IMG/VR virus record: IMGVR_UViG_3300044701_004230
Span: 1 to 42,046 of that record
Direction: 5' to 3' (one strand)
Source of the DNA: a virus
DNA length: 42,046 bases
Shown here: positions 1 through 29,109 of the stretch, one piece after another
Layout of the letters: each line of letters opens with the position of its first letter
Position numbering within the stretch: the first letter of the stretch is position 1
Position numbers and translations under genes: made by a program
Notes under the pieces: model-generated
Database searches by the model: none
What the model was told of the DNA's origin: nothing
The model's input: only the letters and a program-made list of their open reading frames with translations

Positions 1-3000
1 CACCCTCAATGGGACTAGCCGGCGGGGTGGCGGTGGATATAAACGCGGCGGCACCAGTAGCTCCGGCAGGACCAGTCGCACCGGTTACTCCGGTCGGGCC
101 GACAACACCAGTGGCTCCAGATACACCAACAGCCCCTGTGGCACCAGTGGCACCAACCACACCAGTCGCACCGGTTACTCCGGTCGGGCCGACAACACCA
201 GTGGCTCCAGATACACCGATAACACCAGTGGCCCCCGTGGGTCCTTGAATACCCGTTGCCCCAGTTGCCCCGGACACGCCAACGACACCGGTTGCCCCGG
301 TTGGACCTTCGCTACCGGTGACACCCTGAGCCCCAGTGGCTCCCGATATACCAATGACGCCTGTGGCGCCAGTGGCACCTGTAACACCGATGACTCCAGT
401 AGCTCCAGAGACGCCGATTACGCCAGTCGCCCCAGTAGCCCCAGTAACCCCAGCAACTCCCGTTGCACCGGAAATACCGATAACGCCCGATGCCCCAGTC
501 GGGCCCTCGACACCCGTTGCACCAGTGACACCAATAGCGCCCGTTGCGCCAGAAACACCAACAACACCGGTAGCGCCCGTTGCGCCAGAAACCCCAATGA
601 CGCCCGATGCGCCGGTAGGACCTTCTACGCCAGTGGCACCAGTTGCTCCCGAAACACCAACAACTCCAGACGCTCCGGTTGGACCAGTAGTTCCCTGAAC
701 GCCAGTTGCACCAGTTACGCCGGTAGCGCCCGTAACTCCAACAACGCCAGTTGCGCCCGTGGGACCATCTATCCCAGTGACGCCCTGAGGCCCAGTGGCG
801 CCCGTAACTCCGACAACGCCCGTCGCGCCAGTGGGGCCAGTGGTACCCTGAACTCCAGTGGCACCTGTCGCACCCTGAACTCCAGTGGCTCCGCTTACGC
901 CAACTACTCCAGTTGCACCACTGACGCCAACAACACCAGTAGCACCAGTGGCGCCGTCAACTCCGGCAACGCCAGTTGCGCCTGTAACTCCGACTGCCCC
1001 CGTTGCACCCGATACACCGACAGGGCCGGAAGCGCCAGTAGGTCCGGCGACTCCGGTTGCGCCAGTAGCACCCTGAGGGCCAACATAGCCCTGGGTAATG
1101 GCAGTACGGATGCTACTAGGGGTATTTCCGGAGTGCAGGAAGTGCGCGGTAACATTGCTCGTATGAGTGGTCTCTGCATAAACCTTGACCACTACCCGGT
1201 CCGTCGGGTCAATAGCAATTGGACTGGTGGCGACAATTAGGGCTGTGTAGTAATTGCTAGAAGTGGCATTGATTTCCGGACCGTCGAGTTCAAATAAGAA
1301 TGTCTCAGTGCCGCCAGTATTGCGCTTGTAAACCTTGAAATTTAAATTAGTACTACCACTAGTGTCGCTGACGTAGGCCCAGAAGCGGAACTCGTACTCA
1401 CCAGCGGGGATTTCGGTAAGATTTGGGTCGCCTGCGTCGGTGGCGAATTCTTCGATAATAACTTGGCCGGCGGTGTCAACCACCACAGCGGTCATGTCGT
1501 CCTGTGGATCCGAGTCGGGGGTGTCCGGCTGCAGCGATTCATAGCCGCTGATATCCGAGTCAGCCTGACCAAAGTACCAGACACGACCAGAGGCGCTGAT
1601 GCCTGCAGCGCCAGTGGCACCTGTTGCGCCGGTAACGCCAACGCCGGTAGCTCCGGTGATTCCTACACCAGTCGCCCCAGTCGCTCCAGATACGCCAATG
1701 ACACCGGTCGCGCCAGAGACCCCGATTACGCCGGTGGCGCCAGTCGCCCCGTCCGTGCCAGCAACACCGGTAGCACCAGTTATGCCGACGCCAGTAGCAC
1801 CCTGGATGCCGGTTGCTCCAGTGACGCCAGAGGGGCCAGTCGGGCCATCCACGCCAGTCGCGCCAACTGGGCCGGTTGCGCCACTAATCCCGATGACTCC
1901 AGTGGCTCCAGTGGCTCCGGTAACACCGATAGGACCAGTGCTACCCTGGATGCCAGTAGCGCCAGTTGCCCCCGAAACACCAGTGCTGCCCTGGAGTCCG
2001 GTTGCTCCAACCGCGCCGGTTGCGCCGGTGACACCAACACCTGTTGCACCAGTGGCTCCGCTGACACCAATTACGCCAGTGGCACCCTCTGGTCCTTCTA
2101 CGCCAGTTGCCCCCGTGTCGCCGGTAACGCCAGTAGCACCGGTTGAGCCAGTGTCTCCCGTGACACCAGTTGCACCTGAGACCCCGATGACGCCAGTTGC
2201 GCCAGTAGCTCCTACGCCAGTAGCGCCAGTGATTCCAACTGCTCCTGTTGCACCCTGGACACCAGTAGCACCTTCCGGGCCAGTTGCCCCTGTCACGCCA
2301 GACGCCCCGGTCGGGCCCTCGACACCCGTTGCACCAACGGGACCCGTGGCACCGCTAATTCCAATAACACCCGTAGCGCCGGTCGCGCCAGTCACGCCGA
2401 CAGGACCCGTACTTCCCTGTACTCCACTTGCTCCGGTTGGGCCTTCGACCCCAGTAGCTCCATCTGGGCCCGCTACGCCCTGAATGCCGGTGGCACCAGA
2501 CACGCCAACTGCCCCGGTAGCACCAGTCACGCCAGTAGCGCCTTGAATGCCTGTAGCACCGTCAGGACCAGCTACGCCAGTAGCGCCGGTAATGCCATCC
2601 GGACCTGTTGCACCAGTCGCGCCATCAGCGCCCTGGACTCCCGTCGCGCCAGAAACACCAATCGCACCAGTTGCTCCATCAGCGCCCGCGACACCTGTTG
2701 CCCCAGAGATGCCAGTGACGCCCTGAATACCCGTTGCACCAGTTGCCCCAGCAATTCCAGTTGCGCCCGATACGCCAACAGGGCCAGTTGCACCAGTGAT
2801 ACCGTCAGGTCCAGTCGCCCCCGTTGCACCAGTTGGGCCCTGGATACCAGTTTCTCCGGCCGCTCCGGTCGCACCAGTTACGCCAATCACCCCAGTCGCG
2901 CCAGCAGAAGCTATCAACTGCCAGTCAACACCTGGATATCCCGGATAATAAGAAGCAAAAACTCCAGTTAATGTATAATAACTAGAACCAAAATAAGTTA

Positions 3001-4117
3001 CAATATCTCCCGGTGCATAATCTATACCATTTACCCATTCGCCAGTATAGTTCCACAGGGCATCAGCCCCGGTGGCGCCTTGAATACCAGTTGCGCCAGA
3101 TACCCCGATAACGCCAGTTGCCCCGGTCGCGCCATCAGCGCCAGTAACACCCTCGGCCCCTGTAGCGCCCGAAACTCCAGTGGCTCCAGTTACACCAATT
3201 TGGCCGCTTACTCCGCTGGCTCCAGTGGGACCCGCGATGCCAGACGCGCCTTGGGCACCGCTCGCTCCAGTAGCGCCTGTAACCCCCTGAGAACCAATTA
3301 TTCCAGTCGCACCGATGGGCCCCTCTGGACCCGTTACTCCGGTAGCGCCTTGTGGACCGACATAGCCTTGGGTAATCGCGGTACGAATACTGCTGGGAGT
3401 ATTGCCAGAGTGCAGGAAGTGGGCGACTACATTACTGGTGTGAGTTGTTTCAGCGTAAACCTTGATAACGATGCGATCAATCTCATCAATATAAATTGGG
3501 CTAGTTGCTACAATCAGTGTAGTATAGTAATTACTGCTAAGAGCATTAATCTCGGGGCTGTCGGCCTCAAAAAGTAATGTTTCAGTCCCGACGGAGTCGC
3601 GCTTGTATACCTTAAATACTAAATTAGTACTACCACTAGCGTCGCTGACGTAGGCCCAGAAGCGGAACTCGTACTCACCAGCGGGGATTTCGGTAAGCCC
3701 TGGATCCTCAAAATCGGTTGCAAATTCCTCTATTATTGCCTGACCACCGGTATTCACTACGGTGGTTATCATGTCATCTTGAGGGTCTCCATCGGGAAAA
3801 TCTGGCTGCAGCGATTCGTAGCCAGCAATATCCGAATCGGTTTGTCTGAAATACCAAAGACGACCAGTTGCACTAATGCCGGCTGCTCCAGTGGCGCCAG
3901 AGACGCCAGTTGCGCCAGTTACGCCAGCGGGCCCCGTGGGTCCAGCAACCCCAGTGGCTCCCCCGGGATCGCCAGCAGGGCCCTGCGGACCAACTACGCC
4001 AAGGGTTAATAATTGAACTACCGGATCGGTGGTAACTACAACAACTTCTTCATTGCCCTCTGTTTCAACCGAAACATTGACAATAGTGTCTGAAATCTGT
4101 ACGATAGCGTCAGGCAT
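1..4117 (-). CDS. Collagen-like tail fibre protein, C-terminus outside window
   Basis: The frame opens at an ATG at 4117-4115 and has no stop down to the left edge, so at least 1,372 codons are present and the C-terminus is missing. After about 41 N-terminal residues comes a Gly-X-Y array starting [14 protein letters not shown], with triplets rich in GAT, GPT, GVT and GVS. Collagen-like stretches lie near residues 42-76, 255-348, 405-839 and 1013-1352. They are interrupted by two copies of a ~175-residue beta-rich domain (about 77-255 and 840-1013) and one ~55-residue insert (348-404) with [17 protein letters not shown], which resembles small carbohydrate-binding modules of fibres. Phage collagen-like repeats form trimeric stalks, so I infer a virion fibre with sugar-binding parts. 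It overlaps the upstream gene by 8 nt, so translation is probably coupled. Near the left edge the repeat ends and a new domain seems to begin. Confidence 0.88.
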
Positions 4118-8234: not shown

Positions 8235-9599
8235 TTACCATGTGCTAAGATCGACTTTCTGCCATTGATTGGTACCAGTTGCTATCAGTAATGCGTCCTC
8301 ATCCCTAGCAAGTTCGCCGTCGCGGCCGGGCTGAGTCCTATAAGCGACATCAGAAGTACGCGACGCCCTCTCAGTGGGAGCCCATTCCAAGGTGCTAGAA
8401 TTCCATTTCAGGTATTGATTCGAAAGTGCGGTACTAACGGACGAACCAACGTCATCAAAATCCCTAAACTCAAACGCTGTGGTCTGCCATTGGGCAGAAG
8501 TTCCATTGGTTCCCAGAGATAGATGACGATTGGTTGGGTTCGAAGAGGCTCTTATTGGTAGCGAATACAGGCCACTGGTTCCGCTGATCGGAGTATAAAG
8601 AGCGGCACCTCTGGTGACCCTGAATTCATCGATGTATCCATTGAACCTGTAGCCAGCGGCAAGCGGTGAGCCGCCAATGGTTAGAGTCGCATTGGTCGAT
8701 GGTCTAACGGGAGCAGACTGTCCCGACGACAATGAGGTTGTTCCATTCGCAAATTGATACCATTGACTTCCGGTCCAGCAAATCCCAAGATGTATCCATG
8801 TATTCAAACCTATTCCGGCTATCGAAAAAGCGGAAAGCCCAGTTGCATTAGCTATATGTATGCTGAGCTGGGCCGATGTATTTGTTCTAATGATCCAATG
8901 ACTGCCAGTCGGACTCACCGAAACATTGGGCCCACCGGCCATAGCTATTATTTGGTCTGTGTTATAGCCAAGTTGGTATATCCACGCTTCTATGGTAAAT
9001 GGTGCGTCAAAAATATCCACAGCATTTGGACTTCCTACGGTCAGGTAAGTCCCGTCAACATTATTGAAATAAGCAGAAGTTCCACCAAATTTACTCTGTG
9101 CCGTAGTAATCAATGGTGAGCCATTTGGCGTTACAGGCAGATTATTAAGGGAGCTGTCTGAAAAAGTGCCGTCAAAGTGCAGTAATGCTGCTGTTGGGCT
9201 TTGAATCGGCAGCAATGCTTTAATTGCTTCCGGAACGGTTGATTTGCCAGTTCCACCTTTCGCAATTGAAACAGTACCTGATATTTTGCTATTCTGAATA
9301 GTTCCATCTGGTATTTTGGCCGTGGTAACTGAATTAGCGTTCAGCACCATGCTCGACGGGCCTTCGCCGTTATTGCTGACTGTTATAGAACCTTTGTTTT
9401 CATTTTTTATATAACCAATAATTCTTTCACTGGAATTATTAGCATCTAAAGAATGTAGATAAACACTGCCAGCCTGCCTCTCGCATACTAGTTCACCAGG
9501 CAGGCAAGCATCTGTTCCACCCGGTTCGATTGCAGCAGCTATCTGAACCTCGGAATCTGCTGTGCTCTTGTGTGCTATATGCTCGGACTGGATTGTCAT
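8235..9599 (-). CDS. LamG-containing tail fibre protein
   Basis: 454 residues from ATG. Residues 1-135 are the shared fibre N-module (LPGELVCERQ, YIKNENKGSITVSNNGEG, then GGTGKSTVPEAIKALLP). Residues ~136-340 form one complete LamG/concanavalin-like sandwich (ALLHFDGTFSDSSLNN, QSKFGGTSAYFN, FTIEAWIY, YIDEFRVTRG). The C-terminal module (~345-454) carries QYLKWNSSTLEWAPTE and ends NQWQKVDLSTW. LamG folds of this kind bind glycans, so I infer an adhesin on the virion tail. It pairs with the small beta protein just downstream and shares its N- and C-modules with the two fibre genes upstream. Confidence 0.85.
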   Translation of the reverse strand: MTIQSEHIAHKSTADSEVQIAAAIEPGGTDACLPGELVCERQAGSVYLHSLDANNSSERIIGYIKNENKGSITVSNNGEGPSSMVLNANSVTTAKIPDGTIQNSKISGTVSIAKGGTGKSTVPEAIKALLPIQSPTAALLHFDGTFSDSSLNNLPVTPNGSPLITTAQSKFGGTSAYFNNVDGTYLTVGSPNAVDIFDAPFTIEAWIYQLGYNTDQIIAMAGGPNVSVSPTGSHWIIRTNTSAQLSIHIANATGLSAFSIAGIGLNTWIHLGICWTGSQWYQFANGTTSLSSGQSAPVRPSTNATLTIGGSPLAAGYRFNGYIDEFRVTRGAALYTPISGTSGLYSLPIRASSNPTNRHLSLGTNGTSAQWQTTAFEFRDFDDVGSSVSTALSNQYLKWNSSTLEWAPTERASRTSDVAYRTQPGRDGELARDEDALLIATGTNQWQKVDLSTW

Positions 9600-9644: not shown

Positions 9645-12600
9645 TTACCCGTTCGGGAATGTGGCAGTAGGTCTGACAAAATCAGACACGTATCGGGCTA
9701 CACCTTTAGTGATCCGCAGGTCATCAATGTACCCTAGAAAATTTATACCAATAGCGCTACTGGTAAGGCCGGTTACATCTACCGTACTATTAAAAGAAGG
9801 CGATACAAAGGAAGTTGAACTACCGCTGGCGATGTTCTCCTGAGAGCCGTTAACGAATATCCTGCATGTGCCTGAGCTTCTGGTGAATGCCACATGAACC
9901 CAGGTATTGAGATAAAGCGCTTGGGCGATATCTACACTGTATATATCGGAAAGAGTGCCAACGTTGAAGCTTGCTTGCAACCTGTACCCAAATCCAGCAT
10001 CTCCATACCTAAAGACAAATCCAGAGCCACCATAATTAATAGAGAATATTGTTGCATTATTTGCGTAAACATATGGCACGGCGCCACTCGTATTGGATGT
10101 GACGTAAACCCAAGCTTCAACTGTAAAATCACCTGTCCCAAAAGCAAAGCCACTTGGTGTCCCCGTCGAGAGGTAGTCGCCAGTACCGTCAAAGAAGGCG
10201 CTCGAGCCACCAAATTTATTTCGCGTTGTACTGATTTGAGCGTTGCCGAAGGGAGTTATGGTCAGGTTGTTTAAACTGCTATCGACAAATGTCGTGCTAC
10301 CATTCGTGCCATTCGCACGTAATAACAAGCTAACATTACTGAAATTGGGATCAGTTACTACTGGATCTGAAACGTCAGGGAATGCGGTAGTACGCGGGAC
10401 AAAATCACCCACGTAGCGGGCCACTCCCCTTGTGATGCGAAGATCGTCAATATTGCCCTGGAAGTTTGTGCCAATAGTAACATTCGTTAGGTTGGTTACG
10501 TTTGCTGTACTTGTAAAGGAAACGAATTGGAAAAAGGCTGAGCCAGTACCTACAGACAGATACTGTCGATTACCATTGATGAACAATCGGCAAACATTTG
10601 AGCTTCTTGTGAAGGCAATATGAACCCAAGTATTCAGGTATGTAGATTGCGAAATATTCGCGTAGTAAGTATTGGCCGCCGTGGCAGAGTCAAGGGTTAC
10701 CTGTAATCTGTGCACATATGGAGAAGCACTATCCGCATACCTGATAGTAAGGGAGGTACTCCCATAATTCATTGTTAGTATCTGGGGAAAAGCTAAGGTG
10801 CTAGCCGTGATACGGACCCAGGCTTCGACGGTGAAATCCCCAGTCCCGAAAGTTAGGGCACTTGTTATTGCGGGAGAAAGAAAGTCGCCCGTTCCGTCGA
10901 ACAGCCCACTCGAGCCACCGAACTTGCTTTGAGCAGTGCTAATCTGCGCATTGCCGCTGGGAGTGACTGTCAACGCGTTAGGGCTGCTATCCGTGAACGT
11001 GGTGCTACCGTTGCTACCATCCATGTGCAACAGGAGGCCAACATTCGCGAAATAGGGGTCGGTTGACGACTCTGCTGGCACCGCTGTTGGGGCGGGTGGA
11101 AACGCGAAAGCCCTGGGCGTAAATGCTGTCCAGTAGCGTGCAACTCCTTTGGTTATCCTGACTTCATCTATCCAGCCCAAGAAAACATTACGAAAAGTGC
11201 CAAGACTGGTAAATGGCGTCATTGCCCCAATTCTCATAGGGGCAGTAGTCGCTGGGCAGAAGTCTGTGGTTATCGAAGTGTCTGTTCCCACCTGTGTTCC
11301 ATTTACAAACAGGCGGAGCACGTTACCATTACGCACCGCAGCAACGTGGTACCATACGCCCGCTGTCGAGAACGCGAAGGCACCCGAGGCTGACCCCTGC
11401 GTGCCGCCACCGCTATTGAAGCCCCAGGCAAATTGCAGGCTACTAGTGCCAGCATAAAAACTAAAAACGTTTTCAGTAGTTGAAGCATTGGATTGAGAAA
11501 CTATAGCGTAGGTACTCGGTCCCTGGGCATTGACTAGAGTTGGCCTGATCCAGGCTTCTATTGTAAAGTTTCCAGTACTAAAATGATGTATGCTACTTGC
11601 CGGGAAGGTTACAAAGGTACCATTACCAAAAACACCCTGGTCCTCGACGCCATTGAAGTATGCACTTGCCCCGCCAAACTTGCTTTGCGAAGTGCTAATA
11701 AATACTGCGCTTTGAGCCGACTGCGTTCCATCGAACCCGTACTGGCTATTATCGACGAAGCTGTTACTGCCATCGGCATTATCAAAGTGAACGAGTAGAG
11801 TGGTATTGTTAAAGAATTCGTCAGCGACTCCAGCCGCAGGCGGATAAGTAAAACTAGCAGTCGTAATCGAAGGTGACCTTAGTAGCGTGTAATTCCATGT
11901 GCTGTAAGGAGTACGTCGCCATGTATTTGTCGCAATACAAACATAAAGATATTCGAAATCTTTAGATATTTGGCCAGCCTTTCCGGGCGCATTTGTACTG
12001 GCTGGAACTGGCCAGGATATGTTTTCAGTTGGAACCCAGCTAGAGTTGGTTGAGTTCCACCTAAGGCACTGGTCGTTTTCAGCGATAGTCTGAGTTAACG
12101 CGCTATTAACGATCTGGGCTCCGCCAACGGAGGTTACGGTCAATGCATTAGTGCTAGAATCTGTAAATGTTGTTGAGCCACTGAGTCCATCCATTCGAAG
12201 CAATGTACTAACACTGGACCAGTTCTGGTCATTGACTCCTTCTCGGAAGGGTGCAGCAGGTATAAAGTCGGCACTGTAACGAGCAACGCCTTTTGTGACC
12301 CGGAAATTGTCCAGGTAGCCATTAAGGAAGTAAGAAGCCCCGTCACCCAGTCGCCCTATTACGCAACCAGTGGCGAGCGACAAGGTTACGCTATATGAGT
12401 ACTCCGAATCCCTTATCCCATTAATATAATAGCGCCATGTCGTACCGCTTCGAGTCAGGGCGATATGATTCCATTGATTCAAAGGAATTGTAGATACCGA
12501 TAACCCTCTATCGGCACCATTCGAGAAAACCTGAAGCTTGCCCGTCGAGGTGATGTACCACACCATTGCGTTGACCCTTGAGCCCACTCCACCGATCGGA

Positions 12601-13943
12601 ATAGTATCAAAAAGTGAGTAATTATTATAAGAAGTCATGTATATCCAGGTCTCAACCGTGAAATCACCCGTCCCGAAGGCAAGGACAGCATTTGCCGGTA
12701 GAGTTAGATAGCTACTGGTACCATTGAAGAAACCAGCATTGCGACTAGCCGTGACAAGGGTATTTACATCGTTTAAAGCATTTATCGAAACATTACCACT
12801 GCCGGATGATAATCCATAGGTTTGCCAAGTAATATTCGAGCCATCCGTAGTTAGTACCTTGTTTGTATTGCTGGCCTGACTTGGCAGCAATGCAGTAATG
12901 GCAGCATCTCTTGTAGTTTGGCCAGTGCCACCTTTCGCGATTCCTATCGCGGCCGATAATTTTGTATCAACAATGGTACCGTCGAGAATTTTTGAATTGG
13001 TAACGGCACCGTCATTCAAGACAAAGCTGGTAGATCCATAGCCATAGTTGGTTACTGTTAGAGAGCCTTTGTTCTCGTTCTCAATTCCAGCGCTTAATTG
13101 AGCAATTGTTTTAACCGTTGTTTGTGCAAGCATCCTGACTTCCCCATCTCCCCTATGTATTACAACTTCTCCTTGCCGCAGCGGATCCGGAGGCGCAAAT
13201 AGACCCAAGAGATTGCTAATTTTTGCACTACCATTTGGTGTAACAGTTAAATTATTGATACTGGAGTCCGTAAATACCGTTGAGTCATGAGGGCCAACCA
13301 TGTGAAGTAACAGGCTGACATTAGAAAAGTACGGGTCGTTAACTCCCTCGGGGAAAGGTCCAGTCGGGAGAGTAAAGTTAGTGCTGTACCGAGCTACTCC
13401 TTTGGTAATTCGAAAATCTTGAAGATTTCCATTAAAAGGAAGTGGACCAGTGTTTTCGCTTGATCTTCCTATTATTGCACCAGTGGCGAGCGATAAGTCT
13501 ACGCTATAAGTGTATTCAGTAGCATCTTTAATTCCATTTATAAAATATCGCCACGTCGTGCCGCTTCGGACGATGGCAATGTGATTCCACTGGCCCGCCA
13601 GCAATGCCGAGGTAGACATTCCTCTGTAGTTGCTCGCAGAATATATATTAATTCTCGCATTAGCCTCTACAATAATTAGCATCGCGTTATTTCTTTGAAA
13701 ACTGGTGCCTATTGGTTGCGTATCAATAATCGTACGAGCATTATTCGGTGCGCCTAGATAGACCCACGTTTCAATTGTGAAATCAGATGTCCCCATGGCG
13801 AGGACATTGTTGGCCGGCAGAGTTAAATAGCTATTAGACGCACTAAAGGAACCACTCAGTCCGAACGGAGTGAGGTCCGTCACAGTGGTTGCGAGACTAT
13901 CCGTCGTATTTTTCAGCCTTATCCTATCTGGAAAAACAGACAT
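9645..13943 (-). CDS. Giant multi-LamG tail fibre/adhesin with permuted LamG units
   Basis: 1,432 residues from ATG. It starts MSVFPDRIRLKN, like the fibre at 14443-16677 (MALFPERIVFKN). Five LamG units are recognisable by the FTGDFTVE.W core and the 'DDLRITKGVARY' end. The last three (about residues 710-952, 955-1188, 1195-1432) are normal tandem units. The first two (about 27-238 and 397-611) appear with the C-terminal part first and the N-terminal strands (NVSLLLHM..STTFTDSS) last. They split a conserved backbone: the ENENKGSLTV/GGTGQTT/LLPSQ module (~243-395) and the QCLRWNSTNSSWVPTE module (~613-708). Role inferred: host-glycan binding. It is by far the largest adhesin in the block. Confidence 0.87.
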   Translation of the reverse strand: MSVFPDRIRLKNTTDSLATTVTDLTPFGLSGSFSASNSYLTLPANNVLAMGTSDFTIETWVYLGAPNNARTIIDTQPIGTSFQRNNAMLIIVEANARINIYSASNYRGMSTSALLAGQWNHIAIVRSGTTWRYFINGIKDATEYTYSVDLSLATGAIIGRSSENTGPLPFNGNLQDFRITKGVARYSTNFTLPTGPFPEGVNDPYFSNVSLLLHMVGPHDSTVFTDSSINNLTVTPNGSAKISNLLGLFAPPDPLRQGEVVIHRGDGEVRMLAQTTVKTIAQLSAGIENENKGSLTVTNYGYGSTSFVLNDGAVTNSKILDGTIVDTKLSAAIGIAKGGTGQTTRDAAITALLPSQASNTNKVLTTDGSNITWQTYGLSSGSGNVSINALNDVNTLVTASRNAGFFNGTSSYLTLPANAVLAFGTGDFTVETWIYMTSYNNYSLFDTIPIGGVGSRVNAMVWYITSTGKLQVFSNGADRGLSVSTIPLNQWNHIALTRSGTTWRYYINGIRDSEYSYSVTLSLATGCVIGRLGDGASYFLNGYLDNFRVTKGVARYSADFIPAAPFREGVNDQNWSSVSTLLRMDGLSGSTTFTDSSTNALTVTSVGGAQIVNSALTQTIAENDQCLRWNSTNSSWVPTENISWPVPASTNAPGKAGQISKDFEYLYVCIATNTWRRTPYSTWNYTLLRSPSITTASFTYPPAAGVADEFFNNTTLLVHFDNADGSNSFVDNSQYGFDGTQSAQSAVFISTSQSKFGGASAYFNGVEDQGVFGNGTFVTFPASSIHHFSTGNFTIEAWIRPTLVNAQGPSTYAIVSQSNASTTENVFSFYAGTSSLQFAWGFNSGGGTQGSASGAFAFSTAGVWYHVAAVRNGNVLRLFVNGTQVGTDTSITTDFCPATTAPMRIGAMTPFTSLGTFRNVFLGWIDEVRITKGVARYWTAFTPRAFAFPPAPTAVPAESSTDPYFANVGLLLHMDGSNGSTTFTDSSPNALTVTPSGNAQISTAQSKFGGSSGLFDGTGDFLSPAITSALTFGTGDFTVEAWVRITASTLAFPQILTMNYGSTSLTIRYADSASPYVHRLQVTLDSATAANTYYANISQSTYLNTWVHIAFTRSSNVCRLFINGNRQYLSVGTGSAFFQFVSFTSTANVTNLTNVTIGTNFQGNIDDLRITRGVARYVGDFVPRTTAFPDVSDPVVTDPNFSNVSLLLRANGTNGSTTFVDSSLNNLTITPFGNAQISTTRNKFGGSSAFFDGTGDYLSTGTPSGFAFGTGDFTVEAWVYVTSNTSGAVPYVYANNATIFSINYGGSGFVFRYGDAGFGYRLQASFNVGTLSDIYSVDIAQALYLNTWVHVAFTRSSGTCRIFVNGSQENIASGSSTSFVSPSFNSTVDVTGLTSSAIGINFLGYIDDLRITKGVARYVSDFVRPTATFPNG

Positions 13944-14442: not shown

Positions 14443-16677
14443 TTACTTTAATGGTAGCTCCATCGCTGGCGGAGTGAAGCTACTTGTGTACCTGGCCACG
14501 CCATAAGTATAGCGAAAGTCATCAACATAACCATTTAAAAACACAAACGTTGATCTCCCGATGTACAATGGCCCATTGGTAGGATTACCAAGCCATGTAG
14601 TATTACCGGTTAAGTTTCCATCTGTAAATATACGTATACGCTTTTCTGCCGCCACATGAGTCATGGCAATGTGATGCCAATTATTTAGTGTTATCGTTCC
14701 ACCAGTCGTCTGTTGGAAATAACCGTAGAGTCCGCTAGTCTGCTGGAAAGCAAACCTGACACTCCCTCCCGCTACGGGACCAAATGCCCAGTAAGCGTTT
14801 ACAGAGCTAGTAGTGCCACCACAATAGATTAGAGGAGACCAGAATACGCCACCTGGATACTGATCACTTGCAAAACTTGTACATCTTACCCAACATTCAA
14901 TAGTGATATCTGTTCCCCACCAAGTAACCAAGTTACCAGGCGGACTTGCAAATTGCAGGGAGGAATTAGTTCCATTGAACAAGGCAGAAGAGCCTCCGAA
15001 TTTGGACTGAGCCGTGCTCATCGCAAGTCCACCGTTTACCGTGGCTACGTAATTATTGGCACTAAGGTCGGTAAATGTTGTACTGCCATTCGCCCCATTC
15101 ATCGCGTAACGCAGCGATACACTCGAAAATAATGTGTCCAGATAGCCAGCCTTGGGGGGTGCTGCCACCACGGCTGTGTCTTTTGCTGGTGGGAGGATAA
15201 TATTCGCCTGACTCGGCTTCTGCTTTAAGGCAATTGTCATGCGGTATGCAGGATTGCCGTCGGCAAAGGTAGACGATGCATACGTTAGATCGGTAGAAGC
15301 AACGCCTGGAGTAAATTTCCTTCCCGCGTGAGCCTGGAGGGATCCGCTAATGAAACCCGTATCACTGGGAGACCATTCATAGTCAAAGTATAGCGGTGAT
15401 TCCAGCGTCCCAGGGGTTGCGGTCATGCATCCTCCAGCAGTAGTACAATTTCCACCTTGATGGAGTAGATAAAGTACTACACAATTAGACGTAGTAGTAG
15501 TGATGCTTAGAGGTTGCTTGGCCCCTGGAGTCGTGGCGGTATTAAAAAGGGAGGTGACTGCATCTATCGGATTGGTTGTAGCAATATTTCTAAATACTAT
15601 TATCTGGGCATCTACATCATAACTACTGGCTTGAAATGTAAAAACAGCATTGGGTTCAGCGCTGCTAGCCGCATATTTGTAATATACTCGAGTTCCCGAT
15701 TGAAAGTTAATATCCGTGCGCAATACATTAGCAATAAGCACCCAACCGGTCGGGGTTGGCGGAGATGCAACTCCAGTGGCTCCAACTGTCTGTATAACAA
15801 TTATGCCAATATCGCCAGCCAGGTGACCCGCAGGCCATGGGACTGAAATAGATGTCGGAATATTGTAAAATACTTTCGCTCCAACGCCTACAAATTCAGG
15901 AATAGGTGGACCAACTTTTGTCGGAGCAAGAGTCGAGGCAGTAGAGCTAATTATCAGTGGCACAATCTGAGCATAGTTCCATGTCGACAATGGCGCTCTC
16001 TTCCACCTGTTGACACCAACGCAAGAGTACAGGTAGTTCGAGTCGAACGCTAGCTGTCCAGGCCTCCCAACGTCCGTTGCCGATGCTGGAACTGTCGACG
16101 CCGGAATGTCTTGATCTGGCACCCAATTAGACGTTGTTGAATTCCATACAAGGCAATCCCCATTTACTGGCGGATCAGTTACCGTATCAATATTTTCATA
16201 TTCATTTAGAATAATCTTTTTCGAATCCCAAGAAAGAGTGGTTCCGTCGGTCGCGAGAACCTTGTCAGTATTGCCAGCCTGGGAAGGGAGTAGTGCATTT
16301 ATCGCCGTTGTGGCAGTCGTTTGCCCGGTACCCCCTTTCTCAACGCTTAGTGGACTGGCGAACTTGGCATTGGGGATACTTGCGTCAGGAATATTTACAG
16401 CAGTTACACTGTTATCATTTAAAACAAAACTAGAGGATCCTTCGCCGAAGCTTGTAACAGTTAACGACCCCTTATTCTCGTTCTTTATTCTGGCGCCTAC
16501 CTGAACTACGCTACCGGATATACTTAAAGAATAAAGGCGGAACCCGTCAGATTCTCTATACATCAATAACTCACCCGGGACCAGGGGACTTATTGATCCA
16601 GGCGCTACCTCTGCGATAAGAGTAGAAGTACCGGTTGTGCTATTTTTGAAAACAATTCTTTCAGGAAATAGCGCCAT
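14443..16677 (-). CDS. Tail fibre protein with fibre N-module, beta domain and C-terminal LamG
   Basis: 744 residues from ATG. Residues 1-150: shared fibre N-module (PLVPGELLMYRES, IKNENKGSLTVTSFGEG, EKGGTGQTTATTAINALLP, DKVLATDGTTLSW). Residues ~165-245: the linker module with CLVWNSTTSNWVPDQD and VGRPGQLAFDSNYLYSC. Residues ~255-495: an adhesin-type beta domain (PWPAGHLAGDIGIIVIQ, PTGWVLIAN, RVYYKYA). Residues ~513-744: LamG (SLRYAMNGANGSTTFTD, AQSKFGGSSALFNG, ITIECWVRC, YVDDFRYTYGVARY). It shows the uninterrupted backbone that the 1,432-residue protein contains in split form. Role: glycan-binding tail fibre, by inference from LamG. Confidence 0.86.
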   Translation of the reverse strand: MALFPERIVFKNSTTGTSTLIAEVAPGSISPLVPGELLMYRESDGFRLYSLSISGSVVQVGARIKNENKGSLTVTSFGEGSSSFVLNDNSVTAVNIPDASIPNAKFASPLSVEKGGTGQTTATTAINALLPSQAGNTDKVLATDGTTLSWDSKKIILNEYENIDTVTDPPVNGDCLVWNSTTSNWVPDQDIPASTVPASATDVGRPGQLAFDSNYLYSCVGVNRWKRAPLSTWNYAQIVPLIISSTASTLAPTKVGPPIPEFVGVGAKVFYNIPTSISVPWPAGHLAGDIGIIVIQTVGATGVASPPTPTGWVLIANVLRTDINFQSGTRVYYKYAASSAEPNAVFTFQASSYDVDAQIIVFRNIATTNPIDAVTSLFNTATTPGAKQPLSITTTTSNCVVLYLLHQGGNCTTAGGCMTATPGTLESPLYFDYEWSPSDTGFISGSLQAHAGRKFTPGVASTDLTYASSTFADGNPAYRMTIALKQKPSQANIILPPAKDTAVVAAPPKAGYLDTLFSSVSLRYAMNGANGSTTFTDLSANNYVATVNGGLAMSTAQSKFGGSSALFNGTNSSLQFASPPGNLVTWWGTDITIECWVRCTSFASDQYPGGVFWSPLIYCGGTTSSVNAYWAFGPVAGGSVRFAFQQTSGLYGYFQQTTGGTITLNNWHHIAMTHVAAEKRIRIFTDGNLTGNTTWLGNPTNGPLYIGRSTFVFLNGYVDDFRYTYGVARYTSSFTPPAMELPLK

Positions 16678-16706: not shown

Positions 16707-17699
16707 CTAGCATCCCGGCTCCGACGTGTTCGATACACAGGTCAGGGTTGTAGGGTCGCACTTTTCGCACGGGGGACAATCGGAGTTACAGCGACATTTG
16801 GCGAAACAGGCTGCCGGTGGCGTCCATGTCTGACATTTTTTTATGTAGTAAGTTGTTTCGTTAGTGACAGGATTGTAGAAGTACCCAGCTTTAGTATTGG
16901 TATATCCTGCAGGCGCTGTTGGGGGAACCCAGTTCGGATCGTACGTACCTGCGGATGTTGAGGGGATCGTTTCACACAAAATGAGTTCTCCGGGCTGTTG
17001 GCAGGCCTCACACGGCTGATCTACCAGCACCTGTTGGCCATTTATGGAGACACTTTTTAAATCAGAGGGTATATAAGATGCGCAATACTTTACGCCAGTT
17101 AGCACTCCACATTTTGTAAGATTTTTACACGACCAGCAGGCTGGGTCGGGGTACCACGAACCGTCGTCCGAGCACAGTTCGCAAACGCGTGTTTCATTGC
17201 ACCAACAGGGTCCACTATTGGATATCTGGCACTGTGATCCGCCATTTCCATCGCTTTGGCAGGTTGAGCACTCATCGCAATAGTTGCCAGCACAGCCATC
17301 CGGTAGCGGACCGTTTACATTGTTTTGATAAAATGAAGTACAGAATGCATTGCATTCCTTTTCTGGCTCAGGGCATTCGCCACAATTGCATATTATATAT
17401 CCTGGACCGTATCGACAACACCTGGTGCCACAGCAATCTTGCGCAAGACACGAAAGCCCTGGCGTAGACTTCCCACATTCCGTTCCACAAGTAGTCGTAC
17501 CGGTGCCGCAATCCTCGCTAGCTTTTTGAGGACCAAGAAAAGTACACTTGTTGTTTATGCATGCATATCCAGATGCGCATTCTTCTGTGTTATAGCACGC
17601 GGTTCCTCCTAGAATCGCTCTGGTTACGCCAGTTGTCAGGAACTCCGAGGCGGCTTCGGACCTCGCTTTATTGTAAAACCAACTAGAGAAGGAAGCCAT
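16707..17699 (-). CDS. Very cysteine-rich putative virion protein
   Basis: 330 residues from ATG with an AAGG just upstream. Roughly 42 cysteines occur in patterns such as CYNTEECASGYACINNKC, QDCCGTRCCRYG, CDECSTC and RCNSDCPPCEKCDP. These recall EGF/knottin-like or metallothionein-like folds, but no single family is recognised. There is no signal peptide; the first ~30 residues are amphipathic and Cys-free. It follows a LamG gene and a small beta protein, exactly as the other Cys-rich protein follows the set at 6.4-9.6 kb. Disulfides would not form in the reducing cytoplasm before lysis, so either metal binding or oxidation after release is expected. Function unknown. Confidence 0.75.
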   Translation of the reverse strand: MASFSSWFYNKARSEAASEFLTTGVTRAILGGTACYNTEECASGYACINNKCTFLGPQKASEDCGTGTTTCGTECGKSTPGLSCLAQDCCGTRCCRYGPGYIICNCGECPEPEKECNAFCTSFYQNNVNGPLPDGCAGNYCDECSTCQSDGNGGSQCQISNSGPCWCNETRVCELCSDDGSWYPDPACWSCKNLTKCGVLTGVKYCASYIPSDLKSVSINGQQVLVDQPCEACQQPGELILCETIPSTSAGTYDPNWVPPTAPAGYTNTKAGYFYNPVTNETTYYIKKCQTWTPPAACFAKCRCNSDCPPCEKCDPTTLTCVSNTSEPGC

Positions 17700-18153: not shown

Positions 18154-18978
18154 CTAGTAATTAGGGAATGGTAAGGCGGGCGGCGTAAACGAGCCCGTGT
18201 AGCGCCCGACCCCCTTGGTCAGTCGTACTTCGTCCATGTAGCCCTGGAATGCGGTCCCGACCGCTCCGGCCTCTCCTGGGATGGTGCCAATCGCGATCTG
18301 GGGATTGGTACTAGGTCTGGCCCGGGCCGCTAGCGCAAAGGTCTGACTTACGCCATTGATGGCCAGGTGGGCGTTCGAGCCGACGACAGATACAGACAAG
18401 AACGACCAAGCATTATTTGGCGCAAAGACGCTACCGGTAGAGGCAACACTTACTGGGGTTCCTGTATTGTTCGCAAGTTGCAAATTGATAAAACCTGTAG
18501 AGGTAAGCTGAATCAGGGTATGGATTCCAGTAGTGTTGTTCCAGGCGACACCAGTTCCACCTGTGGACATGATTCTGGAACCACTGGCCTTGGAAGCCGT
18601 TGGGTATATCCAAGCCTCAAACGTGAAGTCGGAAAGTACAAAGTCAAAATTAACGTCATATGCACGGCTTAGGAAGTCGCCAGTACCATCGAACAGCGCA
18701 GATGCTCCGCCAAATTTGCTCTGGGTAGGATTCATCTGAACGTTGCCATTCGGAGTCAGGTTCAGTGCAAAGGCACTGCTGTCCGTAAACGTAGTACTGC
18801 CAATAGCTCCATCCAGGTGGAGAAGTAGGCTGACATTAGAAAAATTCGGATCACGAACCAGGGGCCAAGTACTAGCCCTGATTTGTAGCACCTGTTCGCG
18901 ACCTGTCCATACCCCTGAGGCAGTGGAGAGATTAGGGCTGCGCAGCGCCCCGATAAGGCCACCATTGAGCCCAATCAT
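18154..18978 (-). CDS. Single-LamG putative tail adhesin
   Basis: 274 residues. The ATG overlaps the stop of the upstream gene (TGATG), so translation is coupled. After ~40 residues without a clear motif comes one LamG unit: NVSLLLHLDGAIGSTTFTDS, QSKFGGASALFDGTGDFLS, FTFEAWIYPTA, and YMDEVRLTKGVGRYTGSFTP at the end. Unlike the other three fibres it lacks the GGTGQTT backbone module, so it may attach differently or be an added subunit. Inferred role: glycan binding on the virion. Confidence 0.82.
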   Translation of the reverse strand: MIGLNGGLIGALRSPNLSTASGVWTGREQVLQIRASTWPLVRDPNFSNVSLLLHLDGAIGSTTFTDSSAFALNLTPNGNVQMNPTQSKFGGASALFDGTGDFLSRAYDVNFDFVLSDFTFEAWIYPTASKASGSRIMSTGGTGVAWNNTTGIHTLIQLTSTGFINLQLANNTGTPVSVASTGSVFAPNNAWSFLSVSVVGSNAHLAINGVSQTFALAARARPSTNPQIAIGTIPGEAGAVGTAFQGYMDEVRLTKGVGRYTGSFTPPALPFPNY

Positions 18979-24725: not shown

Positions 24726-25085
24726 CTAGTTTGCCAAAGGCGGCATATTAGCCAGTGCTCTATATTTGTTTATATTATCGAGATCGTAGCCGCCGAGATA
24801 CCGGTGCTTGTTGTCCGCAAAAGCCTGTCGGAAGCTATCGATGGAGTTCACCGCAACCTCGAATACTCGATCAAACTCACTAAGCAGCATGGCCACGACT
24901 TCCTCTCCGGGGGAGTCACCGTTGATTGCCTTTTCCACTGCAATCCTGCAATACGCTAAGCAGTACATCAAATCCTCTTCCGACATCTCCTCTATTGGGC
25001 ACTCTGGTAGTATCGGTCCTGGCACGGCGAGTGCATTTTCCCAGTAGACTTTAGCAATATCTTCCGGTGAACCAAAAACAAACAT
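24726..25085 (-). CDS. Hypothetical protein after tape measure
   Basis: 119 residues; the ATG overlaps the tape-measure stop (TAATG). It is acidic and helical: SPEDIAKVYWENALAVPG, PIEEMSEEDLMYCLAYCRIA, VVAMLLSEFDRVFEVAVNSI, YDLDNINKYRALANMPPL. It is not a recognised family. Its size and helical nature fit a small assembly factor or tip component. Translation is coupled to the tape measure, which would keep the two at a fixed ratio. Confidence 0.65.
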   Translation of the reverse strand: MFVFGSPEDIAKVYWENALAVPGPILPECPIEEMSEEDLMYCLAYCRIAVEKAINGDSPGEEVVAMLLSEFDRVFEVAVNSIDSFRQAFADNKHRYLGGYDLDNINKYRALANMPPLAN

Positions 25086-28000
25086 TAACGATACCTGTTG
25101 CGCTTGATTTTGGTTAATTCTACCAGAATATCGGAGGCTGCTTTTGTTGTGTTAGCCGACTGAATCGTCACGTTGTTCGTAACACGTCCCTGGGGGCTCC
25201 TCAGGGCGGCTCCGAGCATCTGAGAGAGGGAATTATCGCGCCCGGTCGAGGAGCTTCCCACAGCCGCAGCAGCGCCCGTATTAGCGCGTATCCCACCACT
25301 CGGAATATCGAGGCCAGCAGTGATATGAGCCGGAATGACGGTACCGGCGCCAGGGGCCGTCCATTCGCCCCAGGCAGGGGCGTTGATATAGGACAGCTTG
25401 CCGGAACGGCTGAGGAATGCCTCTTGTCCCAGCTCGTTGACCCTGTATGTTGTACCACCGGTCGTTGGTCCACCAGACGCCAGGCCGGCAATGAATTTGA
25501 AGGCATCCCAGATGGGCGGTGTAGCCTGTCGCTGGCGCTGTTGCTGCTGCTTTTGCTGGGCCGGAGTTGGTCCCTTCGGGGCTCCACCGGTTGGCGTTGG
25601 TGTGGTGACGCCACCGTCATTGCGAAGTCTATTAATTTCGACGAGTAGATTTCTCTGCTTCTCAAGTTCTGTTGTAATGAACTCTTCCTTCGTGAGGGCG
25701 CCACCGGTGGCTTGTAGTTGCTCCCACTTTGCTTTCGCAATGTTATTGTTTGATTGCTCAATTAAAGCTTCCCACTTTTGAACTGTCGCCGTTGCAGTTT
25801 CCTTAATTCTGGCAATCTCCTCTTCAACTGCCTTTAAATTAGCATTGTATGTGTCTTTCTTCTTCCGCTCATCCTCTTCGAGTTTATTTATTTTGTCTTT
25901 ATGCGCTATCTCAGCGTCTCGAGCCTCATTCTCAATCCTTCTTTCCTCTCTCGTCCGCTCGTCTTCAATTTGCTGCTGTTCAGCCTCCCTTCTCTTCTGA
26001 TTCGCGGCCTGCTCGGCCTTGATTTTGTCTATCTGTTTCTCCCTTTCAATCCTCTCAAGTTGAGCCTGTGCCCTGAGCCGATCCTCCTGTGTCTCGCCCT
26101 GCGCTGCTTCTTTCTTTAATTTACTAACCTCCAGAGCCTTTAGCTGACTCTCGGCAGGAGTCGGCCCCGTCAGCGCAGCAATTCTTGCATCGTATATCGC
26201 ATTCTCTGCAGCCAGTACACGATTTAACCGCTCAAGCTGATCATCATAATATCGCTTTACCCCGGTCTTGTTAGCGTCAATATTGCGCTTCTCCAGCTCC
26301 CAGCGACTCTTCTCCGCCTCTTTTAATTTTGTAATGTTATCAATATCTTCTTTATACTTGGCTTCCAGAGCCGTTTTCCGCTTTTCGGGTCCGATGAGTG
26401 CCGCTTTCTCGGCATTCCGTGCCGCATCTATCTCCGCCTGCGCAACTTCTTTTATCGCATTGCCCTGCTCTTCTAGTTTCTTTACTTCCGCGTCGATTGC
26501 GTTTGTCACAGCATCGGAAGCTGCCACATTCAGACCCAAGGCCTTGGCTCGCAGAAGTAGTGCGTCTTTATTTATCTCCAAAGCTGCATTTTGCCTGGTC
26601 ATTTCCTCAATAATCGCGACTGCGGCTTTTCTCTCCTCCTCGGTCGCAAATGTCGATTCCTGAAGTGCTTTGATTTTCGCGTTATTCCTGGAAATTACTT
26701 GATCTATGCCATTTATCAATGTGGTATAGACCGGCTGCCCTTCCGCTATTTTCTCCTGTGCTGTCTTGCTTGATTTTGCCAACTTTTCTAGCTCAGCCTC
26801 GCCGCCTGCAGCCGCCTCCTGAACGCCAAGAAACGATTCCCTGGATGCATCGAGCTCCTGAGCTAACGCAGCCTGATCGACGGTCGTGAGACCAAGGAAG
26901 CGTCGGAAGATATCAATAGTGGCCTGGAAGCGACCAACGCGTTCAATGGCTCCTTCCCAAGCTGCATTCCCAGCCTGTAGTTCAGTACGCAGGCCATCGT
27001 AGGAATCTGTCATCGATGTTGCAATGTTGATATTGCTCTTCTTCACCTCATTTGCTTTTTCAACTGTTTTACTATACGTATCCCATACCGTAGCAACCGT
27101 CGCAACTACTCCCGCGATGACTGCGAAGGCCGCAAAACCTAGAAGTATATCCTTCAGATTCGACTTAACTGCAGCCATTGCGGCAGCTTGCTGATCCAGT
27201 CTTATTCTTGTTTGTCCAACCGCAGTGGCAAATGTGCCAAGATTAGTGGCACCATTCCTTAAAGCATTAGCAGATTCCGTACCGAATTTGGTGAAGGCAT
27301 TAGTAAGTAGAACCTGCTTAGGGATTAAGCTCCCCGCAGCACCTCCCATCTTACTAAACAGTGGCAAAGGCTTGGTAAGAGCTGAAGTTATGGTCGCCCC
27401 AAGGCCGCCAAAGAGATTTGCCAATGTTTTAATTGGCGTTGCAACCAGTGCCTGACTTGCCGCATAAGCTCCAGCAGCAGCCGTGCCAGCACCCTGGGCA
27501 GCCGTCAGCCCGAGTGTCGCAGCAGCCTGGGCCGCCAGGGCCCTAGAGGCCGCCACCGATGCCGCAACAAGGCTTACAAGTTGAGTGCTCGCAAAAAGTA
27601 CGACAGCAGCGCCAACTGCTATCATTATGGGCTTGAATTCAAGCAGAGTATTGACAATTTTAAGTATAGGATCAATTGCCTTGATCAGTACGAGTATTGC
27701 TTGCAATACAACGTTTGTAATCTCAAGAATCGTTCCACCAATCGCCTCCAGGACAAGGGCAAGAGTCTTAATTGCTTCCGTCTTAGACAGTCCAGAGATA
27801 AAGTCGACGAAGACCGCCCCAAAGCCTTTAAAGATAGCGGAGACTTTTTTGAATTGTTCGCCAAATTGCTCAAGTGATAATTGATTCAACGCAGCAATTT
27901 TTGCCTCGGCCTGGGCAATCGTAACATTGCCCGTCGCCACTGCTTTAGCGGCATCCAGAGCACTGGTGCCGAGTTTGCCATAAATCAGCTTTGACTTATC

Positions 28001-29056
28001 CAGTAATGGCAGGACTTTTAATAGCACTGATGAGGTTACTTCACCAGCTTTAACCATCTCGTTCAACTTTTGAACCGATACGCCAATCGCGTTCGCCAGG
28101 TCAACACGGAAGGCCGGATCCGCTTCAGAGATCTGCTGGTTCAATTCTTCAGCCATCAGCTTACCCTTGCCGAAGGCTTGAATCACACCATTCATTATCC
28201 TCTTCGACTCATCGGCGCTCTTACCGAAAACGGCAAACCTAGAGCTTAATGCCTGAGTGATCTTGCTTACGTCTTCCAGACTTCCGCCAGACTGAAGGAT
28301 CGCAGGCGAAAGTTGCTGGAAGCCCTGCCTGACGGTCTTTAGGTCAACGCCAAGGTTCAGGGAAATCCTTGAGCTTTCCGATAGCGCAACACTTGCTCCT
28401 TCCAGTCCCTGTCCAATTGCTTGGAATGTTAGCTCTGTCGATTGTATCTGTTTTAAGGCATCGGAAAATTGATTAACGAAGCCAGTGACTTGCTGTATAA
28501 TAATTGCCAGACTTTGGAAAATATTAACTGCCTGGCTGATGCCTTGACCGAAGTTCAGAAGCCCTTGAAGGTTGAGGTCGCTCTTGAGACGTGACCAGAA
28601 AGAAGAAGCGCCAGCCTGTTCAAGTGCCTTACTAAGTGCCGCGACTCGTTGATTGGCTATAACCCATTGCTGGTTTGTTACAGCAATCGTCTTGCCATAC
28701 TGATCAGTCGTTACAGCGATTCTGGCAATCGCATCACGAGTCTGCTTTGCCTCATTAACCTGTTGCCTTAATTTTGAAAGGCTACCATCTTGAAGTTTAT
28801 TTGCCTCTACATAATTCCTTATAAGTTTATCTGCCGCTGGATTTATTTCTCTTTCTATGACTTGCGCAATCTTTTTACCGCTACCGTCATCCCTAAAGAC
28901 TATCTTGGCTTCGATTTCGGTTTGACCGCCAAGACCTTTTTGCAGTAACCGCCTGGCTTCACTTGATCCCCTGGCAGCTAGGTCGAAAAAATCTGACAGT
29001 GCGGCTTTCGCCTGACTGGCGTCTCCTACGATGCCTATGGATAAGTCTTTGCCCAT
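25085..29056 (-). CDS. Tail tape measure protein
   Basis: 1,323 residues from ATG at 29056 (MGKDLSIGIVGDASQAKAAL). A TTG 45 nt upstream is in frame but lies inside the terminator hairpin of the tail tube gene, so I prefer the ATG. Residues ~230-352 match the tape-measure N-terminal domain (LGVDLKTVRQGFQQLSPAIL, FGKSADESKRIMNGVIQAF, KLMAEELNQQISEADPAFR). Long hydrophobic segments lie at ~425-505 and ~630-655, a Lys/Glu/Arg-rich coiled coil at ~785-1140, and the C-terminal motif YRVNELGQEAFLSRSGKLSY near residue 1220. It sets tail length; at ~1.5 Å per residue the tail would be about 200 nm. There is no lysozyme or peptidase motif. Confidence 0.93.
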   Translation of the reverse strand: MGKDLSIGIVGDASQAKAALSDFFDLAARGSSEARRLLQKGLGGQTEIEAKIVFRDDGSGKKIAQVIEREINPAADKLIRNYVEANKLQDGSLSKLRQQVNEAKQTRDAIARIAVTTDQYGKTIAVTNQQWVIANQRVAALSKALEQAGASSFWSRLKSDLNLQGLLNFGQGISQAVNIFQSLAIIIQQVTGFVNQFSDALKQIQSTELTFQAIGQGLEGASVALSESSRISLNLGVDLKTVRQGFQQLSPAILQSGGSLEDVSKITQALSSRFAVFGKSADESKRIMNGVIQAFGKGKLMAEELNQQISEADPAFRVDLANAIGVSVQKLNEMVKAGEVTSSVLLKVLPLLDKSKLIYGKLGTSALDAAKAVATGNVTIAQAEAKIAALNQLSLEQFGEQFKKVSAIFKGFGAVFVDFISGLSKTEAIKTLALVLEAIGGTILEITNVVLQAILVLIKAIDPILKIVNTLLEFKPIMIAVGAAVVLFASTQLVSLVAASVAASRALAAQAAATLGLTAAQGAGTAAAGAYAASQALVATPIKTLANLFGGLGATITSALTKPLPLFSKMGGAAGSLIPKQVLLTNAFTKFGTESANALRNGATNLGTFATAVGQTRIRLDQQAAAMAAVKSNLKDILLGFAAFAVIAGVVATVATVWDTYSKTVEKANEVKKSNINIATSMTDSYDGLRTELQAGNAAWEGAIERVGRFQATIDIFRRFLGLTTVDQAALAQELDASRESFLGVQEAAAGGEAELEKLAKSSKTAQEKIAEGQPVYTTLINGIDQVISRNNAKIKALQESTFATEEERKAAVAIIEEMTRQNAALEINKDALLLRAKALGLNVAASDAVTNAIDAEVKKLEEQGNAIKEVAQAEIDAARNAEKAALIGPEKRKTALEAKYKEDIDNITKLKEAEKSRWELEKRNIDANKTGVKRYYDDQLERLNRVLAAENAIYDARIAALTGPTPAESQLKALEVSKLKKEAAQGETQEDRLRAQAQLERIEREKQIDKIKAEQAANQKRREAEQQQIEDERTREERRIENEARDAEIAHKDKINKLEEDERKKKDTYNANLKAVEEEIARIKETATATVQKWEALIEQSNNNIAKAKWEQLQATGGALTKEEFITTELEKQRNLLVEINRLRNDGGVTTPTPTGGAPKGPTPAQQKQQQQRQRQATPPIWDAFKFIAGLASGGPTTGGTTYRVNELGQEAFLSRSGKLSYINAPAWGEWTAPGAGTVIPAHITAGLDIPSGGIRANTGAAAAVGSSSTGRDNSLSQMLGAALRSPQGRVTNNVTIQSANTTKAASDILVELTKIKRNRYR

Positions 29057-29088
29057 CAAGACACCGGAACCTGGTTTAGATTGCCAAG

Positions 29089-29109
29089 AAAAAACCCCCA
29101 AAATGGGGG
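29089..29109 (-). terminator. Intrinsic terminator after the tail tube gene
   Basis: On the minus strand CCCCC-ATTTT-GGGGG is followed by six T, about 30 nt past the tube stop codon. It also covers the in-frame TTG upstream of the tape measure, so tape-measure mRNA must come from read-through or from a promoter between the hairpin and 29056. This gives high tube and low tape-measure expression. Confidence 0.88.

Follow-up and report, generated by a model that had tools for sequence, protein, structure and literature searches.

Phage LamG domains in the tail module

The stretch of DNA analysed here, IMG/VR record IMGVR_UViG_3300044701_004230 (42,046 bases, positions 1 to 42,046; hereafter the window), carries a tail module on its minus strand, consisting of a major tail protein (29140-29772), a tape measure protein (25085-29101), and then fibre genes in series. 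LamG domains are present in four of the window proteins: P0004 (274 amino acids, aa), P0002 (744 aa), P0001 (1,432 aa), and P0003 (454 aa). The focus of this study is P0001, in which a fibre backbone is split at two sites by LamG units whose segments follow one another in a rotated order. The Pfam family Laminin_G_3 (PF13385) is matched in all four fibres, and in P0001 the match extends over five stretches (3.3e-93, 310 bits against a cut-off of 27.6). The LamG-bearing fibres of the window also give strong matches to phrog_24074 and phrog_3545, as well as tblastn matches in phages. The features are listed in Table 1; contigs used for comparison are designated by L and a number.

Table 1. P0001, its segments, and the other LamG-bearing fibres of the window (ORF, open reading frame)
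Feature	Position	Strand	Basis
P0001 fibre gene, 1432 aa: backbone, two permuted LamG inserts, and C-terminal array of three normal LamG units	9645..13943	-	ORF; Pfam
Backbone, residues 1-25 (MSVFPDRIRLKNTTDSLATTVTDLT)	13869..13943	-	Aligned to P0002, L001, L242 fibres
Insert 1 at site 1, residues 26-252, 227 aa/681 nt: permuted LamG, core then N-segment	13188..13868	-	Profile [49-229]+[1-41]
Insert 1 core, residues 26-199	13347..13868	-	Profile
Insert 1 displaced N-segment, residues 203-243	13215..13337	-	Profile, i-Evalue 2e-12
Backbone, residues 253-400 (RQGEVV..., NENKGSLTV, GGTGQTT, LLPSQ, LNDVNT)	12744..13187	-	Backbone alignment
Insert 2 at site 2, residues 401-613, 213 aa/639 nt: permuted LamG, loop between LNDVNT and DQCLRWNSTNSSW	12105..12743	-	Profile; site empty in L242, P0002; AlphaFold2
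Insert 2 core, residues 401-564	12252..12743	-	Profile
Insert 2 displaced N-segment, residues 572-612, with predicted strand VSTLL	12108..12230	-	Profile, i-Evalue 1e-10; pLDDT
Backbone, residues 614-700 (DQCLRWNSTNSSWVP...PGKAGQISKDFEYLYVCIATNTWRR)	11844..12104	-	Backbone alignment
Three normal-order LamG units of P0001 (residues 708-951, 962-1191, 1198-1431)	9651..11822	-	Unit profile
Fibre P0002, 744 aa: P0001-type backbone, sites 1 and 2 empty, one C-terminal normal LamG (514-743)	14443..16677	-	Profile and backbone alignment
Fibre P0003, 454 aa: P0001-type backbone, sites 1 and 2 empty, one normal-order LamG (131-350) after LLPIQ (site 3)	8235..9599	-	Profile and backbone alignment
P0004, 274 aa: lone normal-order LamG (43-274), protein stops directly after core	18154..18978	-	Profile

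Rotated segment order of the two inserts

A profile of the LamG unit (229-230 columns) was built from six normal units, three from P0001 and one each from P0002, P0003, and P0004, with the inserts left out. The six units match the full profile in order, although they are the units from which it was made. In insert 1, columns 49-229 match residues 28-199 (independent E-value, i-Evalue, 5.8e-28) and are followed by columns 1-41 at residues 203-243 (2e-12). In insert 2, columns 51-224 match residues 403-564 (7.4e-30), again followed by columns 1-41 at residues 572-612 (1e-10). Both inserts thus show the rotated segment order of a circular permutant, with each segment significant on its own, and in both the break point falls between AQIS and TAQSKFGG. 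Against the phage unit profile the inserts score 93.5 and 99.7 bits. The right boundary of insert 1 is uncertain, within residues 244-253.

The original prediction, a model's reading of the sequence, had described two phase-shifted LamG units in this fibre, and the profile order of core followed by N-segment confirms that observation. It had placed them near residues 17 and 395 and given each a length of ~215 residues, or ~645 nt; the inserts lie near these places and are of similar scale, but start at residues 26 and 401 and span 227 and 213 aa (681 and 639 nt).

The similarity of the inserts to each other, also claimed at the outset, amounts to 52% identity over 229 aa, linker included, and to about 68-74% identity in the alignable parts of the DNA. 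A recent DNA duplication of the inserts is ruled out by this level of DNA identity. In a tree of LamG cores, both inserts group together (Shimodaira-Hasegawa-like approximate likelihood ratio test support, SH-aLRT, 93) and their sister is a normal unit of L003 (98). Given the identity of the inserts and the grouping of their cores, they are most simply read as one permuted unit present twice.

Fibre backbone and insertion sites

Site 1 lies between NTTDSLAT..LT and RQGEVV, and site 2 in the loop between LNDVNT and DQCLRW. Alignment reveals backbone homology on either side of both sites in P0002, P0003, the L001 fibre, and two fibres of the related contig L242. The backbone is uninterrupted at sites 1 and 2 in P0002, P0003, and both L242 fibres; P0002 and the L242 pair (L242a and L242b) serve as insert-free homologues that are continuous across both sites, as expected of insertion into loops. 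The contrast originally drawn between an unbroken 744-residue fibre and a split 1,432-residue fibre therefore holds. Of the versions with fewer inserts that had been proposed as a check, those with none are P0002 and both L242 fibres, and L001 represents a version whose site 1 is occupied by a normal unit. Close relatives of the backbone appear to be few, since searches with P0002 and with two backbone alignments recovered only L001/L002 and L242. When the L242 backbone was the query, most matches were short, and a scan of genome contigs with insert 2 gave a single relative, L266.

Exchange of the module at site 1

L001 and L002 (IMGVR_UViG_3300008448_000630 and 3300042691_021579) are two contigs with identical fibre genes. 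Their fibre of 1,416 aa is an orthologue of P0001 with the same backbone, and its DNA is 87% identical to the window from residue ~278 on and 82% identical in the stretch just upstream of the gene. Site 2 carries the permuted unit in both phages, with cores that are 95% identical. In contrast, site 1 holds the permuted unit in the window and a normal-order LamG (profile [7-227]) in L001, the core of which is placed elsewhere in the core tree, in another lineage than the inserts. Segment order, boundaries, homology, and the exchange of a module at site 1 are all read at the level of sequence. As site 1 is normal-order in L001/L002 and permuted in the window, one slot accepts either form, which suggests that phages can mount a LamG adhesive domain in two different ways.

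According to the original prediction, permutation would bring both ends close together and so allow insertion as a loop. Permuted units do occur in loops; however, permutation is not needed for insertion, because site 1 of L001 and P0003 carry internal normal-order units. As a separate observation, the 744-aa fibre P0002 and a 723-residue ORF of L001 are 91% identical over the first 246 residues, while their C-terminal LamG units are strongly diverged, which points to a second exchanged or fast-evolving tip.

Predicted structure and residue coupling

Residues 380-640 were modelled with AlphaFold2 from an alignment in which normal units were represented by their cores only, so that the displaced segment was unguided by them. 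Insert 2 is predicted to form one closed sandwich (predicted local distance difference test, pLDDT, 86.9; predicted template modelling score, pTM, 0.81), with pLDDT mostly 91-95 in the displaced segment and a strand at VSTLL (578-582). VIA-align pairs positions ~20-238 of the model with the full length of pentraxin, LNS, and laminin-G domains (1sac 4-204, Z 18.0; 3flp, Z 18.9; 1qu0 2935-3117, Z 16.1). With LG and pentraxin matches at Z 15-21, insert 2 is predicted to be a concanavalin-A-like sandwich; insert 1, for which this holds at lower confidence only, would fold in the same way. In a second model, of residues 1-690, the stretch 400-616 by itself forms a complete LG-like sandwich independently of insert 1 and gives the same structural match. 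Laminin LG4-5 pairs align to this model over residues 26-617, which is what one LG domain per insert would produce; the high root-mean-square deviation (16) of these pair matches reflects that the model does not predict how the two domains are placed relative to each other.

The top couplings between N-segment and core in normal units include 7-157, 11-153, and 12-153, a ladder that corresponds to an antiparallel register of the first strand against the YIDDLRIT strand. Ranked against random segments, the unit's own N-segment reaches 0.68 (standard error, SE, 0.02) in held-out normal units and the N-segment of the next unit 0.55 (SE 0.03). The own N-segment of permuted units reaches 0.72, with values of 0.92 and 0.99 for the inserts of the window. 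This modest and partly post hoc test agrees with the N-segment occupying the same place in both orders. The pLDDT values, the end-to-end colinearity, and the couplings support a model in which the displaced segment would pack on the core of its own unit.

LamG order in other phage proteins

The surveyed loci were selected for their similarity to the window and represent a sample, not a census. Among the fetched loci, 640 cores were called N-first, and 20 were called core-first with no further core behind them; of these 20, several are near-copies and the weakest (e.g. 8-10-bit N calls in L173, L105, and L095) are doubtful. N-first order prevails among phage proteins with a single LamG, and many of these, including P0004 and P0002, end about 2 residues after the core, which identifies the N-first form as a physical unit rather than an artefact of phase. 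Core-first order is seen in the single-LamG proteins of L012, L032, and L212; an isolated domain can therefore have either order. Core-first units also open multi-LamG proteins in L038, L099, L164, and L201. They occur inside virion proteins of L012, L032, and the L060 group, where the break falls a few residues earlier, and in L212 one splits, at a hairpin of a Gly-rich fibre, a 'GGDSxF...GGGGG' stretch that is unbroken in proteins of L121, L040, and L099. In the core tree, nine changes of order label are needed, only two of which are forced by strongly supported branches. Because break points and host proteins differ, there was probably more than one event of permutation or transfer.

Gly-rich fibre regions are broken by core-first LamG in the first ORF of L212 (residues 100-560) and in L050/L054 (residues ~1480-1830). 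In an ORF of L060 that starts near base 3000 (also in L058, L062, L063, and L064), a second LamG is apparently nested in a loop of a core-first LamG within residues 511-934; the profile order is [30-170], [27-211], [156-215], [4-39], and the inner LamG also looks core-first.

Interpretation and alternative explanations

The inserts are very probably two self-closing circularly permuted LamG domains in backbone loops of a putative receptor-binding fibre, and the interpretation offered by the original prediction is largely supported. Neither of the two conditions that it had set against itself, a lack of backbone homology around the inserts and pairing of halves across the backbone, proved to hold. 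Several points weigh against this view. The fold of the inserts, including the fold in the virion, is predicted rather than taken from an experimental structure, and the strand pairing is deduced from DSSP, pLDDT, and colinearity, not from contacts. The model of insert 1 is of low to middling confidence, with pLDDT of about 36-72 in its N-segment, where the alignment holds two sequences. The coupling test is modest, with 16 non-independent permuted units and regions picked after the couplings were seen; several couplings involve gap columns, and the set of next units also gave strong single couplings. The surveyed loci form a similarity-selected sample, and receptor binding by the inserts is argued by analogy.

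A further point is that the AlphaFold2 models are monomeric, which leaves room for strand swapping between chains. Phage fibres are usually trimers in which strand swapping is common, and the displaced N-segment could pack on the core of a neighbouring chain, the apparent permutation being an intermolecular interlock. Such a swapped trimer is improbable, because the linker is short, with only 3 and 7 residues separating the core match from the N-segment match in the two inserts, and because the monomer model of insert 2 closes on itself with high confidence.

Two other explanations are very unlikely. If the physical LamG repeat were core plus N-segment everywhere, the inserts would simply display the true unit; in favour of this, pentraxin and LNS domains run in that order too, and an additional N-segment closes some of the arrays. 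This idea is rejected on the evidence of the single-LamG proteins, which are overwhelmingly N-first; in the coupling test, moreover, the N-segment ahead of a core outranks the one that opens the following unit. Alternatively, the trailing N-segment could be a non-folding remnant of a deleted LamG unit, of the kind that unequal recombination slicing arrays would leave behind. However, the two inserts and L001 all conserve the N-segment, which is predicted to be ordered, and a single unit of core plus N-segment recurs in other protein families, some with a different break point.

Least credible is the pairing of halves across the backbone, which the original prediction had itself raised: chain order would permit the N-segment of insert 1 (203-243) to complete the core of insert 2 (403-564) as one normal-order LamG with the backbone looped out, but this leaves core 1 without an N-segment and the N-segment of insert 2 without a core, and it is rejected because L001/L002 have a complete normal LamG at site 1, hence no other free core, while site 2 stays core plus N-segment, and because the monomer model of residues 1-690 closes a full LG match in 400-616 alone.

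For two self-closed permuted domains in backbone loops, the following course may be envisaged. P0001 would be a receptor-binding protein of the tail fibre or tail tip in a siphovirus-like phage, with two LamG (concanavalin-A-like) lectin domains carried in loops of its N-terminal backbone. Each insert would be a complete domain in which the opening strand of the normal unit (VSLLLH...TFTDSS...TVT) is shifted to the C-terminal end, the chain entering and leaving at the loop of the break point, and hence a genuine circularly permuted form of the N-first unit in P0001's own C-terminal array, in pentraxin/LNS strand order. A LamG domain could then be linked in series through one pair of ends, as in the array, or be attached laterally to a loop through the other pair, as in the inserts. 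The inserts keep an array-type linker, PFPEGVNDPYFSNVSLLLH, which suggests an origin of the permuted unit, as originally proposed, by slicing of a tandem array (the core of one unit with the N-segment of the next). The slice would then have been copied to the second site; this origin is plausible but remains conjectural.

The fold and the position beside the tape measure and major tail protein genes suggest a putative receptor-binding lectin role. By analogy, the inserts are most likely laterally mounted receptor-binding domains displayed from the side of the fibre, with a putative ligand on the host surface.

Relation to known domains

By sequence, the inserts are the same domain as the Laminin_G_3 (PF13385) repeats of phage virion proteins (e.g. 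Synechococcus phage S-SKS1 and phage DSL-LC04). Unlike these repeats, they have the leading strand segment after the core and sit in a backbone loop instead of a C-terminal array. The insert 2 model shares fold and strand order with pentraxins (SAP, CRP, PTX3) and LNS/laminin-G domains (1sac, 1gnh, 1qu0, 1dyk; VIA Z about 15-20), and aligns colinearly from end to end with SAP, CRP, and PTX3. The circularly permuted sandwich originally proposed is thus predicted for insert 2, but its order is not exotic; since core plus N-segment is colinear with pentraxins and LNS domains, it is the N-first array order that is permuted relative to them. Pentraxins and LNS domains are only about 14-18% identical to the inserts and are not inserted in a phage fibre, and pentraxins form rings. 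The closer sequence kin of the inserts are the N-first phage units, and the inserts are not claimed to be pentraxins. A sequence search of the PDB with the profiles matched cores only and found no solved N-first phage unit for superposition.

Concanavalin A and other legume lectins are the classic case of natural circular permutation, in a sandwich with adjacent ends. Concanavalin A is permuted after translation, whereas in P0001 both orders are encoded, in one gene and at one exchangeable site. The L001/L002 fibre differs from P0001 in the normal-order LamG of another lineage at site 1. No paper directly on the subject emerged from an open-literature search for permuted LamG units in fibres of phages, which is not proof that the arrangement is undescribed.

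Neighbouring genes

Two other genes on the minus strand of the window deserve mention. A cysteine-rich protein of ~330 aa without a Pfam match is encoded at 16707-17699, and a look-alike adjoins the fibres in L242 (3416-4432). An endonuclease VII-like protein (phrog_2914, 2.9e-28) lies at 34132-34782, inside the structural gene block.

Biological significance

The permuted LamG may represent a general phage 'loop plug-in', a lectin cassette closing on itself that recombination would place in loops of unrelated virion proteins and that would be interchangeable with normal-order LamG at the same slot. Its hosts would include this fibre backbone, Gly-rich fibres (L212), virion proteins of L012, L032, and L060, and the interior of another LamG (L060). 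This generalization is tentative, and we regard it as possible rather than probable.

The inserts mark loops of the fibre backbone as tolerating a domain of 210-230 residues. Comparisons of natural circular permutants usually span distant families, whereas here both orders of one domain are present in one gene. The same slot is occupied by a normal-order unit in a sister phage, which provides a direct natural test of permutation, insertion, and domain exchange in a receptor-binding protein.

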